Assembly: GCA_028687425.1 (NCBI GenBank)
Contig: JAQUAD010000006.1
Coordinates: 1-64,000 of the forward strand
Source of the DNA: Sideroxydans sp.
GTDB lineage: Bacteria; Pseudomonadota; Gammaproteobacteria; Burkholderiales; Gallionellaceae
DNA length: 64,000 bases
Direction of reading: 5' to 3'
Shown: piece after piece, positions 27,536 to 38,635 of the stretch
Layout of the letters: each line of letters opens with the position of its first letter
How positions within the stretch are numbered: the stretch's first letter is position 1
Notes under the pieces: model-generated
Databases searched by the model: none
The model's input: the letters and a program-made list of their open reading frames with translations, nothing else
What the model was told of the DNA's origin: nothing
Program-made: the position numbers and the translations under genes

Positions 27536-28327
27536 TTAGAACGGGCGGCTCAGTTCGAGACCGACTTCCGTTGTCTTGTTGTGCGGCTCCCTGCCGTAGT
27601 CGATTAACATGCCGTTGCGATAAGGCATGATGGCAGAGTCCGCGATGTTCCAGTAATGCAGATATGGTCCGACAGACCAGTTCGGTGTTACGTAGCTCAA
27701 CCTTATCTTGATGCCATATCCATCCGATTGCTTGTTATTAAGATCACTGTAGTTTGTCGAAACGTCTGATAGTTTTGAGAACTGATTGCCTGAAAGGAGT
27801 TGGTCGTATTCGATCATGCTTGCTATTTCGTTGCCGCTGTTCAGCGTTTCCCGCAGGATGAGTCCGGCCGGCAGATAAAAATAGGTGCTCTCGCGGCGGT
27901 AGCCGGCGTGCCCGGTGCTGGTGATACCGCGGCCATCGTTCAGCAGGAACCTGTAACCGAGACCGATATAGCTTGAAACGGTTGCTGAGCGCAGAAGCCA
28001 GTCGCTGCCGATCAGTGCGCGTCCTTCAATATACCAATCCGGTTCGCCACTGCTGCTTCCAGTGCCGTTGCTGGCGTAATCCACCGTGCCACCCGCATAG
28101 CGTAATTCGCCACGCAAGAAAGTGTGGCGGTTGGGATAGGCTTTGGTGGTGCGCAGATCGAAACCGCCTTTGAGACCCTGCAAAGACATCAAGCCGGGTT
28201 CTTCGTAGCGGTAGAAGCCAAGTGATACACCCAATTCGTTGCCGCCTGGGGTTGTGCCGGATGCATGGGCGGCCGTGCAAGACAGCAATATCACTAAGGC
28301 AACAGGATGTGCAACATCTCGGTTCAT
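27536..28327 (-). CDS. Hypothetical outer-membrane beta-barrel-like protein
   Basis: Signal peptide; alternating aromatic/beta pattern; C-terminus GLELSRPF. Confidence 0.55.
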   Translation of the reverse strand: MNRDVAHPVALVILLSCTAAHASGTTPGGNELGVSLGFYRYEEPGLMSLQGLKGGFDLRTTKAYPNRHTFLRGELRYAGGTVDYASNGTGSSSGEPDWYIEGRALIGSDWLLRSATVSSYIGLGYRFLLNDGRGITSTGHAGYRRESTYFYLPAGLILRETLNSGNEIASMIEYDQLLSGNQFSKLSDVSTNYSDLNNKQSDGYGIKIRLSYVTPNWSVGPYLHYWNIADSAIMPYRNGMLIDYGREPHNKTTEVGLELSRPF

Positions 28328-34278: not shown

Positions 34279-34354
34279 GGCTCGGTAGCTCAGTTGGTAG
34301 AGCAGCGGATTGAAAATCCGCGTGTCGGTGGTTCGATTCCGCCCCGAGCCACCA
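34279..34354 (+). tRNA. tRNA-Phe (GAA)
   Basis: GGCTCGGTAGCTCAGTTGGTAGAGCAGCGGATTGAAAATCCGCGTGTCGGTGGTTCGATTCCGCCCCGAGCCACCA; cloverleaf pairs, anticodon GAA, encoded CCA. Confidence 0.96.
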
Positions 34355-34534: not shown

Positions 34535-35974
34535 ATGGGACGTATCTCGTTACGAAGTTTCACTACTATTGTTTTGTTCATGAGTGTTGGACTGCAGGGG
34601 GCTGCCTATGCAGCGGGTGGAGTGGTCATCAGGGCATTTTCGGCGCCTTCCATTCCGGCGACTCCGTCAGTTGAAGAACAACCTATTGTATTGGCGGGTA
34701 CATCAGTCAGTGTGCCAGACCAATTGCTGAAAGAGGCGGAAGCCTTGCTTAATGCAGGCAAGCCGGAAGAGGCATACCAATTGTTGTCGGCCAAGGACTT
34801 CGAATATTCGGGCAATCAACAATTCGACTACTTGCTGGGTATCGCGGCACTGGATAGCGGGCATCCCGATAAAGCGACGCTCGCATTCGAGCGAGTATTG
34901 GCAATCGATCCCAACTTTGCTGGTGCAAGACTGGATATGGCGCGTGCATATTTCCATCTCGGTGATCTGCCGCGCGCCAAGACCGAGTTCGAATCGGTGA
35001 TGAAGCAGGAGCCACCGGAAGCCGCACGTATCACTATCGAGAAATATCTGGCTGCCATCGAGTCGGCGGAGGATGCCAGGAAGACCCGCTACTCGGCTTA
35101 TGTGGAAGGCGCGATCGGTCGCGACACGAACGCCAACAACTCCACCAGTCAATCGGATGTGGCAGTTCCTGCCTTCGGCGATCTAGTGTTCACACTGAAT
35201 CCCACCAGCCTCAAAACGCCGGCGACCTATTTCACTGCTGCCACGGGCGGCGAGGTAACGCGCATGTTCAACGAGCAGTGGAGCGCGTATGGCGGACTCG
35301 ACCTGCGCCAGCGCAACAATAACAAGATGCACGACTTTGATTCGGGCGGCCTGGATGTTCGTGCAGGAGCCGCTTTTGCTGCGGGGGACGAGGTATTCAG
35401 ACTGGGCGTCACCTGGGGTTTCTATGAGCAAGCGCATGTAAAGAACAGGAATGCTGCGGGGCTGACAGGCAGTTGGCAGCACAATTTCGGTTCAAATGAT
35501 CAGCTCAACCTGTTCGGTCAATACAGCAGGAATCGCTATTCCGAAACCACCTATCAGGTGAATGACTTCAATCAATCCGTCATTGGTGCTGGCATATTGC
35601 ACCTCATGGGGGATGGCACAACAGTGTTGTTCGCAAGCCTGAACGGGTTGAAAGAGGCTGCAGTGAACGACCGGGCGGATGGCAGCAAAGTCGGCTTCGG
35701 CTTGCGGTTCGGCGGACAAATGACCTTCGCTGAAGCATGGGCGGTGTTTGTCAGCGCAGGTTATCAAAGAGGGCGCTATGACAAGGAAAACCTGGCCTTC
35801 CTGACCAAGCGCGATGACGAACAGTACGACGCGGTTTTGGGCAGCAATTGGACGTTTGCCAAGTCATGGTCGCTCCGTCCCCAGCTGACTTACACGCGAA
35901 ATAAATCCAATATCGCCATTTACAGTTTTGATCGTGTCGATGCATCCTTGGCTGTGCGTCGGGATTTCAGATAG
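34535..35974 (+). CDS. TPR + C-terminal outer-membrane beta-barrel protein (surface lipoprotein assembly modifier/DUF560-like)
   Basis: TPR-type segments (LLNAGKPEEAYQLLSAKDFEYSGNQQFDYLLGIAALDSGHPDKATLAFERVLAIDPNFAGARLDMARAYFHLGDLPRAKTEFE), then about 300 aa of beta-strand-like sequence ending VDASLAVRRDFR. Confidence 0.65.
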   Translation: MGRISLRSFTTIVLFMSVGLQGAAYAAGGVVIRAFSAPSIPATPSVEEQPIVLAGTSVSVPDQLLKEAEALLNAGKPEEAYQLLSAKDFEYSGNQQFDYLLGIAALDSGHPDKATLAFERVLAIDPNFAGARLDMARAYFHLGDLPRAKTEFESVMKQEPPEAARITIEKYLAAIESAEDARKTRYSAYVEGAIGRDTNANNSTSQSDVAVPAFGDLVFTLNPTSLKTPATYFTAATGGEVTRMFNEQWSAYGGLDLRQRNNNKMHDFDSGGLDVRAGAAFAAGDEVFRLGVTWGFYEQAHVKNRNAAGLTGSWQHNFGSNDQLNLFGQYSRNRYSETTYQVNDFNQSVIGAGILHLMGDGTTVLFASLNGLKEAAVNDRADGSKVGFGLRFGGQMTFAEAWAVFVSAGYQRGRYDKENLAFLTKRDDEQYDAVLGSNWTFAKSWSLRPQLTYTRNKSNIAIYSFDRVDASLAVRRDFR

Positions 35975-36010
35975 TCGGATATGTCGCAATATTCCTGAAA
36001 GAGGTTGATC

Positions 36011-38635
36011 ATGAAAACCATCAAACAAACCAATTGTCTTTTCATCATCGTGCTGGCCAGCCTGACGTTGTTCGCGCCAGCAGCGCAGGCGGCGATTGCG
36101 GGTAAGGTCCAATTCGTCTACGGGAATGTGCAGGTCACGACTGCAGGTGCTACGCGATTGCTGAAAAAGGGCGACAGGGTTGCCGAGGGAGACACCATTG
36201 CGACGGCTGTTTCCTCTTCGGCCCAGATCAAAATGCTGGACGGCGGTTTTGTGGCGATCCGTCCCAATACGCAGATGAAGTTCGACAAGTTCGTCTTCAA
36301 TGGCAAACAGGATGGCAGCGAACGCAGTTTCTTTTCCCTGCTCAAAGGCGGCTTCCGCGCAGTGACCGGTTTGATCGGTTCCCGTAACAAGCACAATTAC
36401 AGGATCAAAACGCCGTCGGCTACCATCGGCATTCGCGGCACCGACCATGAATCGTTCGTCGTTCCCGTCGGCGATGCTGCCGTACTCGCCGGGACATACA
36501 GCAAGGTGAACGTAGGCGAGACCACCCTGACGACCAATCTGGGCACGATCAACGTGCGCCCCAACCAGATGGGCTTTTCCAGCGGACTGAACGCATTGCC
36601 GGTGCTGGCGCCTATCAACACCAATATCTTCACAGTCGCGGCCGCCCCGAATAAAACCGTTCAGGAAAATGCCGAAGAGCAAACAGCCAAGGCCGAGCAG
36701 GCTGATTCTGGGCCAAAACCTGCAGGCCAAGGGCCGAATAATGGCGATGCAGGTACGCCGGGTAGTGGCGATGCCCAAGGCGCTGAGGGTGGGGAAGTTC
36801 AAGGCCCGCGTCCCGGCGCAGCCGGCCCTGCACCGATCCGTACGGCCACAGCAGACGGAGCACCGCTGCAGCCGCTCCCGCCGCCACCGTCTGTGGCACC
36901 CATGCCCGGGCAGGCGATAGAGGCACCGCCATTGCTGGTGCCGGTCGTGCTGGTCAATACCACCACCGGTGCGATATTGAACTCCACCACGCAAACGCTG
37001 GTTCAGGGGGGCTCGACCACGACCTTGACCACGCTGGTGACCAAACCGGTGACCAATCCATATGTGGTGACTTCCTTGATCTTAGCCGATAGTTTGTCGT
37101 TCAGTTTCTACCCGTACCCATACAGTCTGGAAACCTTGCCGACTGCCATTGCACCCAATGCAACGAATCCCAGCTTCTCGGTAACATGGGGAGGGACCTG
37201 TTCGATCTCGCCTTGCAGCACGGGGGAGACCTATACGCTGACCGGCGCATCGGGTGCGGTGACGGGCGAAGCAAATAGCGTATCTTCCACAGGCATCAAA
37301 TTCGGGCGCTATGCCGTGGTGCCATCTTTGACTACCACCACGCTGTACTCGGGTTCGCCTTCTAGTTCATTTACGCAGACCTTCTCCGGCGGCTACGGCA
37401 GCTGGATCACCGGCCCCAGCGTGAATCCGTTCTATCTGCCGGAAGCCCTGGTCGGTACCGCGACCTACGTGCTGGATGGCGGTACGGCGCCAGTTACCCA
37501 GTCGGGCGTTACGGGCGTGATCGGTTCCGCCAGTCTGTCGGTCAACTTCACCAGCCAGACCGTGGCAGCGAATCTGGCAGTGAGCGGCGGTGGCCATAGC
37601 TGGACAGCCGCAGCCAGCGGGATGCAGCTGACTTCCAACAGTGGCGTCGGCAATTCCCGTGCGCATTTCGATAGCTTCAACGGCGGCACTCTGGATATCG
37701 TGATGGATGGCGTGACTGCAGGACAGGGATATATCACCGGGCAGCTCACCGGCAACGGAGTCAATGGTGCCTTCATGCAGTATTACTTCACCGACACCCT
37801 GGCGCAGAGCATCAGCGGCGCCACCGCATTCAGGCTGGATACTGTGAACGGAGCACCCGCAACCACGGTCGACCTGGCAACACCGTATCAATTGGTGGCA
37901 ATTTCCAGATATGACCCAATGGGTATTGCCGGCAATAACGGCGCGTTCTATGACATCAACGGTGCCTTCAATAATGCAGGGCGCGTGATCAGGGACGCGG
38001 CAGGGAACCTGACTCGCTTTGATATGGCGCTGAACAACAGTGACACAACCGCCGGCATGAATTCCAACATCGTCATGTCCATCGGCACGGCCATTGCAGT
38101 CGATCAGGGAAAAGATCCTGTTTCTGGAATCAGCTGGGGGCGTTGGCAAGGTGGCAGCCTGGGGATGGCCGACCGCGTGACCAATACTGCCTTGACGCCA
38201 ATCGATAACACCAAGAGCAGTCTGCACTGGCTGACAGCACCGGTGATGAACGGGCCGGTGACCTTACCCGCTTCGGGAACGTATAACTACACACTGGGTG
38301 GCGGCACCAGCCCGACCGACAATCAGGGTAACGTCGGCACGCTGAACAGCGCGATGTTGCAGGCCGATTTCTCCGCGATGACAGTGAATGTGGGCGTGAA
38401 TGCCACCGTGGCGGGCACAAACTATGTGGCGACCGGGACCAATTTGCCGATCCAGCAAACCATCTTCGGTGACGGAAATGGCGGCGGTACCTTCACGGCC
38501 ACTGCCAACGGGGTGGCGATCCAGGGCGGCATCGGCGGCTCATTCACAGGTTTGGGGGCGACCGGCGCCGGTGTTGTTTACGGCTTCCAGGACAGGGCAA
38601 CAACAGTGAACGGCGTTGTTGCATTCCATCGCTGA
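36011..38635 (+). CDS. Large exported FecR-domain protein with Pro/Gly linker and two C-terminal beta-rich repeats
   Basis: Signal peptide; IAGKVQFVYGNVQVTTAGATRLLKKGDRVAEGDTIATAVSSSAQIKMLDGGFVAIRPNTQMKFDKF = FecR domain; ATG at 36011 (track uses TTG at 36005). Confidence 0.8.
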   Translation: MKTIKQTNCLFIIVLASLTLFAPAAQAAIAGKVQFVYGNVQVTTAGATRLLKKGDRVAEGDTIATAVSSSAQIKMLDGGFVAIRPNTQMKFDKFVFNGKQDGSERSFFSLLKGGFRAVTGLIGSRNKHNYRIKTPSATIGIRGTDHESFVVPVGDAAVLAGTYSKVNVGETTLTTNLGTINVRPNQMGFSSGLNALPVLAPINTNIFTVAAAPNKTVQENAEEQTAKAEQADSGPKPAGQGPNNGDAGTPGSGDAQGAEGGEVQGPRPGAAGPAPIRTATADGAPLQPLPPPPSVAPMPGQAIEAPPLLVPVVLVNTTTGAILNSTTQTLVQGGSTTTLTTLVTKPVTNPYVVTSLILADSLSFSFYPYPYSLETLPTAIAPNATNPSFSVTWGGTCSISPCSTGETYTLTGASGAVTGEANSVSSTGIKFGRYAVVPSLTTTTLYSGSPSSSFTQTFSGGYGSWITGPSVNPFYLPEALVGTATYVLDGGTAPVTQSGVTGVIGSASLSVNFTSQTVAANLAVSGGGHSWTAAASGMQLTSNSGVGNSRAHFDSFNGGTLDIVMDGVTAGQGYITGQLTGNGVNGAFMQYYFTDTLAQSISGATAFRLDTVNGAPATTVDLATPYQLVAISRYDPMGIAGNNGAFYDINGAFNNAGRVIRDAAGNLTRFDMALNNSDTTAGMNSNIVMSIGTAIAVDQGKDPVSGISWGRWQGGSLGMADRVTNTALTPIDNTKSSLHWLTAPVMNGPVTLPASGTYNYTLGGGTSPTDNQGNVGTLNSAMLQADFSAMTVNVGVNATVAGTNYVATGTNLPIQQTIFGDGNGGGTFTATANGVAIQGGIGGSFTGLGATGAGVVYGFQDRATTVNGVVAFHR

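Follow-up and report, generated by a model that had tools for sequence, protein, structure and literature searches.

The Slam-like gene and its FecR neighbour

The window analysed here, a stretch of 64,000 nucleotides (contig JAQUAD010000006.1, positions 1 to 64,000) from the 2.79-Mb, 99% complete draft genome of the iron-oxidising Gallionellaceae bacterium Sideroxydans sp., carries on its plus strand two adjoining genes which a first-pass annotation had read as a possible type XI (Slam-like) secretion pair. The upstream open reading frame (ORF, 34535-35974) encodes 479 aa, and the downstream ORF (36005-38635) comprises 876 codons from a TTG and 874 from the ATG at 36011, which is more likely the start, with a gap of 30-36 bp between the genes. 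Both ORFs were found as that annotation had them, a protein with tetratricopeptide repeats (TPR) and a C-terminal barrel directly upstream of an exported one that begins with a FecR domain and continues over a Pro/Gly linker to a Gly-rich C-terminal ending, the latter features being confirmed by the ORF, Pfam and a list of C-termini.

The 479-aa product, an outer-membrane protein of the Slam or type XI secretion system (T11SS) type, consists of a signal peptide assigned by eye, a periplasmic TPR domain (residues 62-181; 34718-35077, plus strand) and a 14-stranded beta-barrel (residues 184-478; 35084-35968, plus strand) that represents the PF04575 region. The PF04575 model SlipAM ('Surface lipoprotein assembly modifier') scores 39.3 bits against a curated cut-off of 22, and the window protein is its sole match in the whole genome. 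General TPR models exceed their cut-offs as well (TPR_19, 51.7 bits); TPR_Slam (PF24575), with 16.9 bits under a cut-off of 35.2, does not, a shortfall treated here as divergence within PF04575 and not as defining for the wider family. The AlphaFold2 (AF2) model, based on an alignment of 44 relatives, has a mean predicted local distance difference test score (pLDDT) of 87.9 and shows 14 strands besides the TPR helices; Slams have been described as TPR proteins with a predicted 14-stranded barrel (PMC5449769), and 14-stranded OmpG aligns to the model with a template modelling score (TM-score) of 0.60-0.66 by target.

In a Foldseek comparison with the PDB, the best match of this model was BcsC, itself composed of TPR and barrel, beside simple porins, as might be expected if the barrel protein were instead a polysaccharide exporter (BcsC/PgaA/PelB type) or another outer-membrane TPR protein unrelated to Slams, with the FecR gene an incidental neighbour. 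As no Slam structure was among the PDB matches, the fold alone is not diagnostic and membership in the Slam family rests on the sequence profile. However, PF04575 is over its cut-off whereas no polysaccharide-exporter model reaches its own, the barrel has 14 strands, synthase genes are missing nearby and the FecR gene recurs beside the Slam gene in relatives (see below), which makes an exporter highly improbable. The specific candidate PgaA/BcsC was rejected, as PRK11447 BcsC scored 21.8 bits against a cut-off of 858 and the neighbours are groEL, tRNA-Phe and sox genes. The proposed relationship to DUF560/Slam barrels, with the PgaA-type porin as the alternative, was thus decided for the former by PF04575 and the strand number.

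Architecture of the FecR protein

The second gene, read from the ATG (36011-38635, plus strand; TTG at 36005 possible), encodes an 874-aa exported FecR-TbpB-like protein, the putative T11SS cargo, identified by ORF, Pfam, AF2 and Foldseek. Its putative signal peptide (MKTIKQTNCLFIIVLASLTLFAPAAQA, assigned by eye) resembles the signal peptidase I (SPI) type, ends AAQA, lacks a lipobox and is the sole candidate for a transmembrane helix, and a cytoplasmic anti-sigma region is not present. FecR (PF04773) is the only Pfam match in the protein, with 40 bits against a cut-off of 24. The AF2 model, built with 25 relatives, places a FecR domain at residues 29-200 before a disordered linker and two lobes, each composed of a handle and a barrel. 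Along the plus strand, the N-terminal FecR or retention-module-like domain (residues 24-205; 36080-36625) is followed by the Pro/Gly-rich linker (residues 206-312; 36626-36946; pLDDT mostly below 50), handle 1 (residues 313-480; 36947-37450), the TbpB-like barrel 1 (residues 481-612; 37451-37846), handle 2 (residues 613-752; 37847-38266) and the terminal, TbpB_B_D-like barrel 2 (residues 753-874; 38267-38632), an 8-stranded domain with pLDDT of about 90 over most of its length and the putative T11SS targeting domain. Barrels 1 and 2 share 32% identity (blastp E=2e-11; hhalign 99.7%) and the handles are homologous to each other (hhalign 96.2%), so by internal homology these tandem lobes follow the two-lobe plan of TbpB.

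Compared with three Sideroxydans-type relatives, the structured parts are under purifying selection, with ratios of nonsynonymous to synonymous substitutions (dN/dS) of 0.04-0.16. The FecR domain evolves slowest (0.04-0.05) and is, together with barrel 2, the most conserved part of the protein; the linker is the least conserved and fastest-evolving one, with 51-53% identity to near relatives.

Relationship of the lobes to TbpB

The first-pass annotation had likened the C-terminus to TbpB-type barrels, and the 31 best Foldseek matches of the FecR-protein model in the PDB are indeed TbpB (ranks 1-23 and 25-31) or LbpB (rank 24), with E values of 9.1e-10 to 2.8e-5; hemophilins, anti-sigma FecR domains (4m0n, PupR 6ovk), fHbp and the 5ix9 anchoring domain come after them. 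When the PDB was searched with the sequence of the terminal barrel, nothing matched, so the link to TbpB rests on fold and profiles. Against a profile of 13 Slam-linked cargo ends with the strict TbpB motif, including that of locus L031 (PF01298, 65.6 bits; L numbers designate loci of relatives), the window's terminal barrel reached 94.2% in hhalign (E=1.2e-7) and the FecR domain and handles, as controls, at most 0.2%. An independent set-up with broader sets gave 87.5% for the long-type barrels and 95.4% for those of the type accompanied by a GT41 gene (see below), reversed or shuffled profiles not exceeding 0.7%.

The window motif GGSFTGLGATGAGVVYGF (38534-38587, plus strand) occupies the position of the TbpB-barrel motif of relatives and is a drifted form of GxFxGPxAxExGGxF, at the end of a series that leads from the canonical KGAFFGPAAQNIGGAF (L138) over NGAFFGLNARELGGNW (L176), NGVFSGPNAYRAGITY (L150) and NGFFAGANASRAGLSY (L036) to GGSFTGLGATGAGVVY in the window. 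The Gly-rich ending noticed in the first-pass annotation is real. The PF01298 model misses the window protein. At L138, FecR (51.7 bits) and TbpB_B_D (30.3 bits, cut-off 26) occur in one protein, encoded directly upstream of a SlipAM gene. In an hhalign comparison restricted to the L138 group, with its four FecR-TbpB proteins, the window-type barrel scored 1.4%, that alignment being too shallow; each of the two matches the wider TbpB_B_D set. Canonical TbpB_B_D-type T11SS cargo is also found in Gallionellaceae (L031:5239-7419, twice in tandem; L084:7026-7970).

Co-occurrence of the two genes

PF04575 is present in 65 of 150 genomes of the window's family, many of the relatives being metagenome-assembled genomes. 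Among the loci fetched from this family, FecR is next on the same strand for 71 of 78 Slam-like ORFs, mostly 10-35 bp off; the seven lacking an adjoining FecR gene include one at a contig edge and the canonical TbpB-type L031. FecR genes as such are common (130 of the 150 genomes, usually one to seven in each), and because these are few among roughly 2,600 genes, a gene number that is estimated, well under one chance adjacency is expected. The reciprocal scan of GTDB contigs with the FecR domain yielded 80 loci with a Slam gene directly upstream in 73, the others comprising four that start at a contig edge, two with one small intervening gene and one that has no Slam gene. Across the phylum, PF04575 occurs in 71 of 398 genomes, and among 60 loci chosen across the score range, which are not an unbiased sample, FecR was the commonest Pfam family among neighbours downstream on the same strand (15 of 42) and ranked second among upstream neighbours (6 of 39), behind TbpB_B_D with 14. 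Most Slam-bearing genomes of the window's family repeat the pair in this order and with this spacing, as do genomes of other families and classes. The pairing is not due to chance, and the joint occurrence in other genomes on which the first-pass annotation had staked its proposal is borne out.

When 72 Slam barrels were placed in a maximum-likelihood tree, a clade (support 100/98) of 25 rows, 23 of them FecR-linked, extended from the window's family to many others in the phylum. The four FecR+TbpB proteins fall into another clade (100/100), with L176 apart, and supported branches require the FecR label to have changed three times or more. Distances of Slam and FecR domains correlate over 73 pairs with r=0.64, above all 2000 permutations, a correlation that shared ancestry alone can cause.

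Variants and partner genes among relatives

Four variants of the FecR partner were encountered. Long cargo proteins of 800 to more than 2,000 aa keep the FecR domain and the terminal barrel constant. In a second variant, a single-barrelled FecR protein (about 450-520 aa) is followed directly by a TPR-containing glycosyltransferase of family GT41 (HMW1C/OGT-like), at L036, L039, L042, L046, L048 and L053 in the same family and at L137, as expected for a glycosylated surface protein; the FecR cargo with this neighbour may be a glycoprotein. The third combines a divergent Slam and a FecR protein having a Gly/Pro tail with a CHASE2 cyclase (L063, L073, L075, L077, L090, L147), and in the fourth the FecR protein is short (at most 315 aa) and lobe-less, 26 cases of which some belong to the third variant and one is a contig-edge fragment. 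As short FecR proteins of this kind stand beside a Slam gene, a pair can do without the cargo barrel, and it is FecR that constantly accompanies the Slams of the FecR-linked branch.

Further arrangements were seen in passing. Tandem short repeats (YPVGWIGG.., APGMYGAPAPG..) replace the lobes in FecR proteins of L089 (12899-16348) and L074. At L263 (6935-8101) and L264, the Slam gene is followed by one for a 219-aa Pro-rich exported protein and then by a FecR gene whose product has, as judged by eye, a peptidase S74-type, tail-fibre-like C-terminus, an odd further variant. Upstream of Slam and a short FecR gene, 12 same-family loci encode a lipoprotein-like IgGFc_binding protein (about 520 aa; PF17517, 224 bits; lipobox-like start; L047:5878-7458, L045, L037, L049, L069 and others), which is possibly a non-barrel surface lipoprotein handled by Slam.

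In several lineages, genes for CHASE2 proteins with an adenylate/guanylate cyclase domain adjoin the Slam-FecR pair (L063:9185-11362, L090:5015-7189, L147:2803-4980, L138:3821-5887), which points to signalling in the envelope; the FecR-TbpB group likewise has CHASE2 genes downstream. Proteins of 1243-1308 aa that match the CHASE2-cyclase query after Slam-FecR in family f55 (L154:915-4841, L158:7663-11394), and exported proteins of about 868 aa between the FecR and the CHASE2-type gene (L151:7821-10424, L168:2143-4749) with Big_9/cadherin-like matches among the second neighbours, were noted in addition. It could be argued that signalling comes first, with a relay from the Slam-like barrel over FecR to an inner-membrane CHASE2 cyclase and little or no protein export. 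Same-strand CHASE2 and cyclase genes beside Slam-FecR (the six loci of the third variant) and beside FecR-TbpB (L138, L180, L184, L186) speak for such a relay, as does the BiofilmReg operon of Burkholderia, in which FecR-like proteins are paired with CHASE2 kinases (PMC5192318). Yet the four CHASE2 genes of the window genome lie away from the window pair and, in the stretches read, none stands beside a Slam-type FecR gene, a TonB receptor or sigma factor is not found nearby, and the TbpB-like lobes and the PF04575 assignment would be left unexplained, so that we consider this scenario quite improbable for the window pair.

Genomic surroundings

Upstream of the pair lie groEL, identified by sequence, and tRNA-Phe (34279-34354); soxYZAXB follows the FecR gene after 318 bp. 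Close relatives of the window's FecR domain are those of Sideroxydans, Gallionella and other Gallionellaceae. In line with the first-pass annotation, a TonB receptor, a sigma factor or a membrane-anchored FecR was not found among about 30 window proteins tested, and classical FecI-FecR-FecA signalling was rejected as its partners were not found near the pair; an apparently normal FecI-FecR-receptor set is located elsewhere in the genome on another contig (L283). The genome encodes Skp, a chaperone used by Slam1 (PMC9090332). Elsewhere in the window, a 263-aa outer-membrane-barrel-like protein (27536-28327, minus strand; PF13505 just below cut-off) is encoded next to a D-Ala-D-Ala carboxypeptidase-like gene, recognized by eye.

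Discussion

With families, domain plan, conserved pairing and purifying selection established, the two genes probably encode a translocator of the type XI (Slam) kind together with a cargo dedicated to it, the lobes of which would be exported to the surface. For the translocation and its direction we infer a course in keeping with the reconstitution of Slam1-TbpB export (PMC9090332) and the secretion of HrpC by HrpB (PMC8406197). The cargo would reach the periplasm via Sec, whereupon the Slam protein would recognize the terminal TbpB-like barrel and both handle-barrel lobes would cross the 14-stranded Slam barrel, take up their fold outside the cell and there probably bind a ligand. The FecR domain would, somewhat more likely than not, fold in the periplasm and tether the protein in the envelope, as does the retention module of LapA/MpIBP, with the linker of about 100 residues threading the outer membrane.

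Whether the FecR domain travels along is where an ordinary T11SS cargo would differ, as then the whole protein would be exported with FecR as an extracellular N-terminal effector domain. Such an arrangement follows the published scheme of an N-terminal effector and a C-terminal barrel for targeting (PMC12282271), soluble SPI cargo is known (PMC8406197) and a FecR region is common to the leptospiral surface lipoproteins LipL45/Lsa33. It is unusual, however, for a surface effector to be the slowest-evolving domain, FecR is similar to anti-sigma and retention domains of the periplasm, genes for inner-membrane CHASE2 cyclases stand alongside in relatives and the pairing is kept by the lobe-less short FecR versions; export of the entire protein thus appears rather unlikely. 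A FecR domain that stays in the periplasm is somewhat favoured because of its similarity to the MpIBP/LapA module and of the contrast between the slow FecR domain and the fast linker: a FecR profile of 12 relatives matched the MpIBP retention domain 5ix9 with E=2.2e-4, and all 12 relatives match the LapA retention module NF033682 at E<=0.1, below its curated cut-off. The LapA retention module is known to stall its adhesin in TolC (PMC10225607).

Several observations weigh against a Slam-exported, TbpB-like and retained cargo. PF01298 (TbpB_B_D) has no match in the window protein or the whole genome, which is why fold and profile, and not membership in PF01298, are the grounds for calling the protein TbpB-like. 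Taken by itself, barrel 1 is a weak match to the TbpB_B_D profile (19.8%), and superposition on whole TbpB yields low TM-scores (0.22-0.27 by target; pTM 0.59), because the relative placement of the domains is uncertain in the model. About 26 same-family Slam-adjacent FecR proteins are short and without lobes. As to retention, NF033682 scores 25.8 bits, below its cut-off of 50, and the genome encodes no LapG protease (PF06035), on which ground the LapA system proper was rejected.

Carrying retention of the dedicated Slam cargo further, the FecR-linked Slams might form a distinct type XI branch whose cargo is never released, with FecR plugging the periplasmic side, the linker threading the barrel, the lobes sensing the outside and FecR relaying to inner-membrane CHASE2 cyclases. 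This is a speculative and on balance unlikely proposal; if true, the secretion machinery would serve at the same time as a receptor spanning the envelope.

The majority of type XI (DUF560) clusters belong to soil and water bacteria and had no characterised member (PMC8406197; PMC12282271). Literature searches for the combination of Slam and FecR found nothing and neither FecR nor CHASE2 is mentioned in the two T11SS surveys (main texts; supplements and subscription journals were outside the scope), nor is retention in the main text of the 2025 T11SS survey. We have not found FecR-TbpB-like cargo described for type XI secretion; what comes nearest among known cases is soluble cargo of the TbpB type and cluster 3 with its DUF1194 partner. 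FecR-TbpB-like proteins would thereby constitute a cargo class for one whole Slam branch with a testable targeting domain, and join literatures unconnected in the papers found, on Slam export, retention-module adhesins and FecR/CHASE2 signalling. The findings further suggest that TbpB-like two-lobed proteins occur in iron-oxidising and other environmental bacteria, beyond host-iron capture by pathogens.

Comparison with known systems

The window protein shares the FecR fold with FecR/PupR anti-sigma regulators (PF04773; PupR 6ovk among the matches), but has no cytoplasmic anti-sigma part, FecI or TonB receptor. With the type I secretion adhesins of the LapA/MpIBP module it has in common an N-terminal beta domain before a long surface part, along with the 5ix9 match; those adhesins use a TolC machine and not a Slam, LapG is missing here and the score lies under the NF033682 cut-off. 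The GT41 gene that some relatives carry behind their FecR gene recalls the two-partner secretion system HMW1A/B/C, although the translocator here is a Slam and not an Omp85/TpsB protein and no GT41 gene stands beside the window pair. As in Slam1/Slam2-TbpB of Neisseria, a gene for a TPR and 14-stranded PF04575 barrel protein adjoins that for a protein with two handle-barrel lobes, but the window cargo is non-lipidated by sequence, begins with FecR, possesses a long linker, is too distant in sequence for PF01298 and has no TonB receptor encoded nearby. Hemophilin/HrpC, the soluble cargo of HrpB (TXISS-1B), resembles it in the SPI-type signal peptide, putative in the window cargo, the lack of a lipobox and the C-terminal barrel, and hemophilins are among its structure matches, whereas hemophilin has one lobe, no FecR, a host-associated origin and a link to haem uptake. 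Marine cluster 3 T11SS, like the window pair, is of a non-cluster-1 type with an unusual co-occurring partner (PMC12282271); there the partner is DUF1194 and barrels are rare, whereas in the window pair FecR is combined with TbpB-like lobes.

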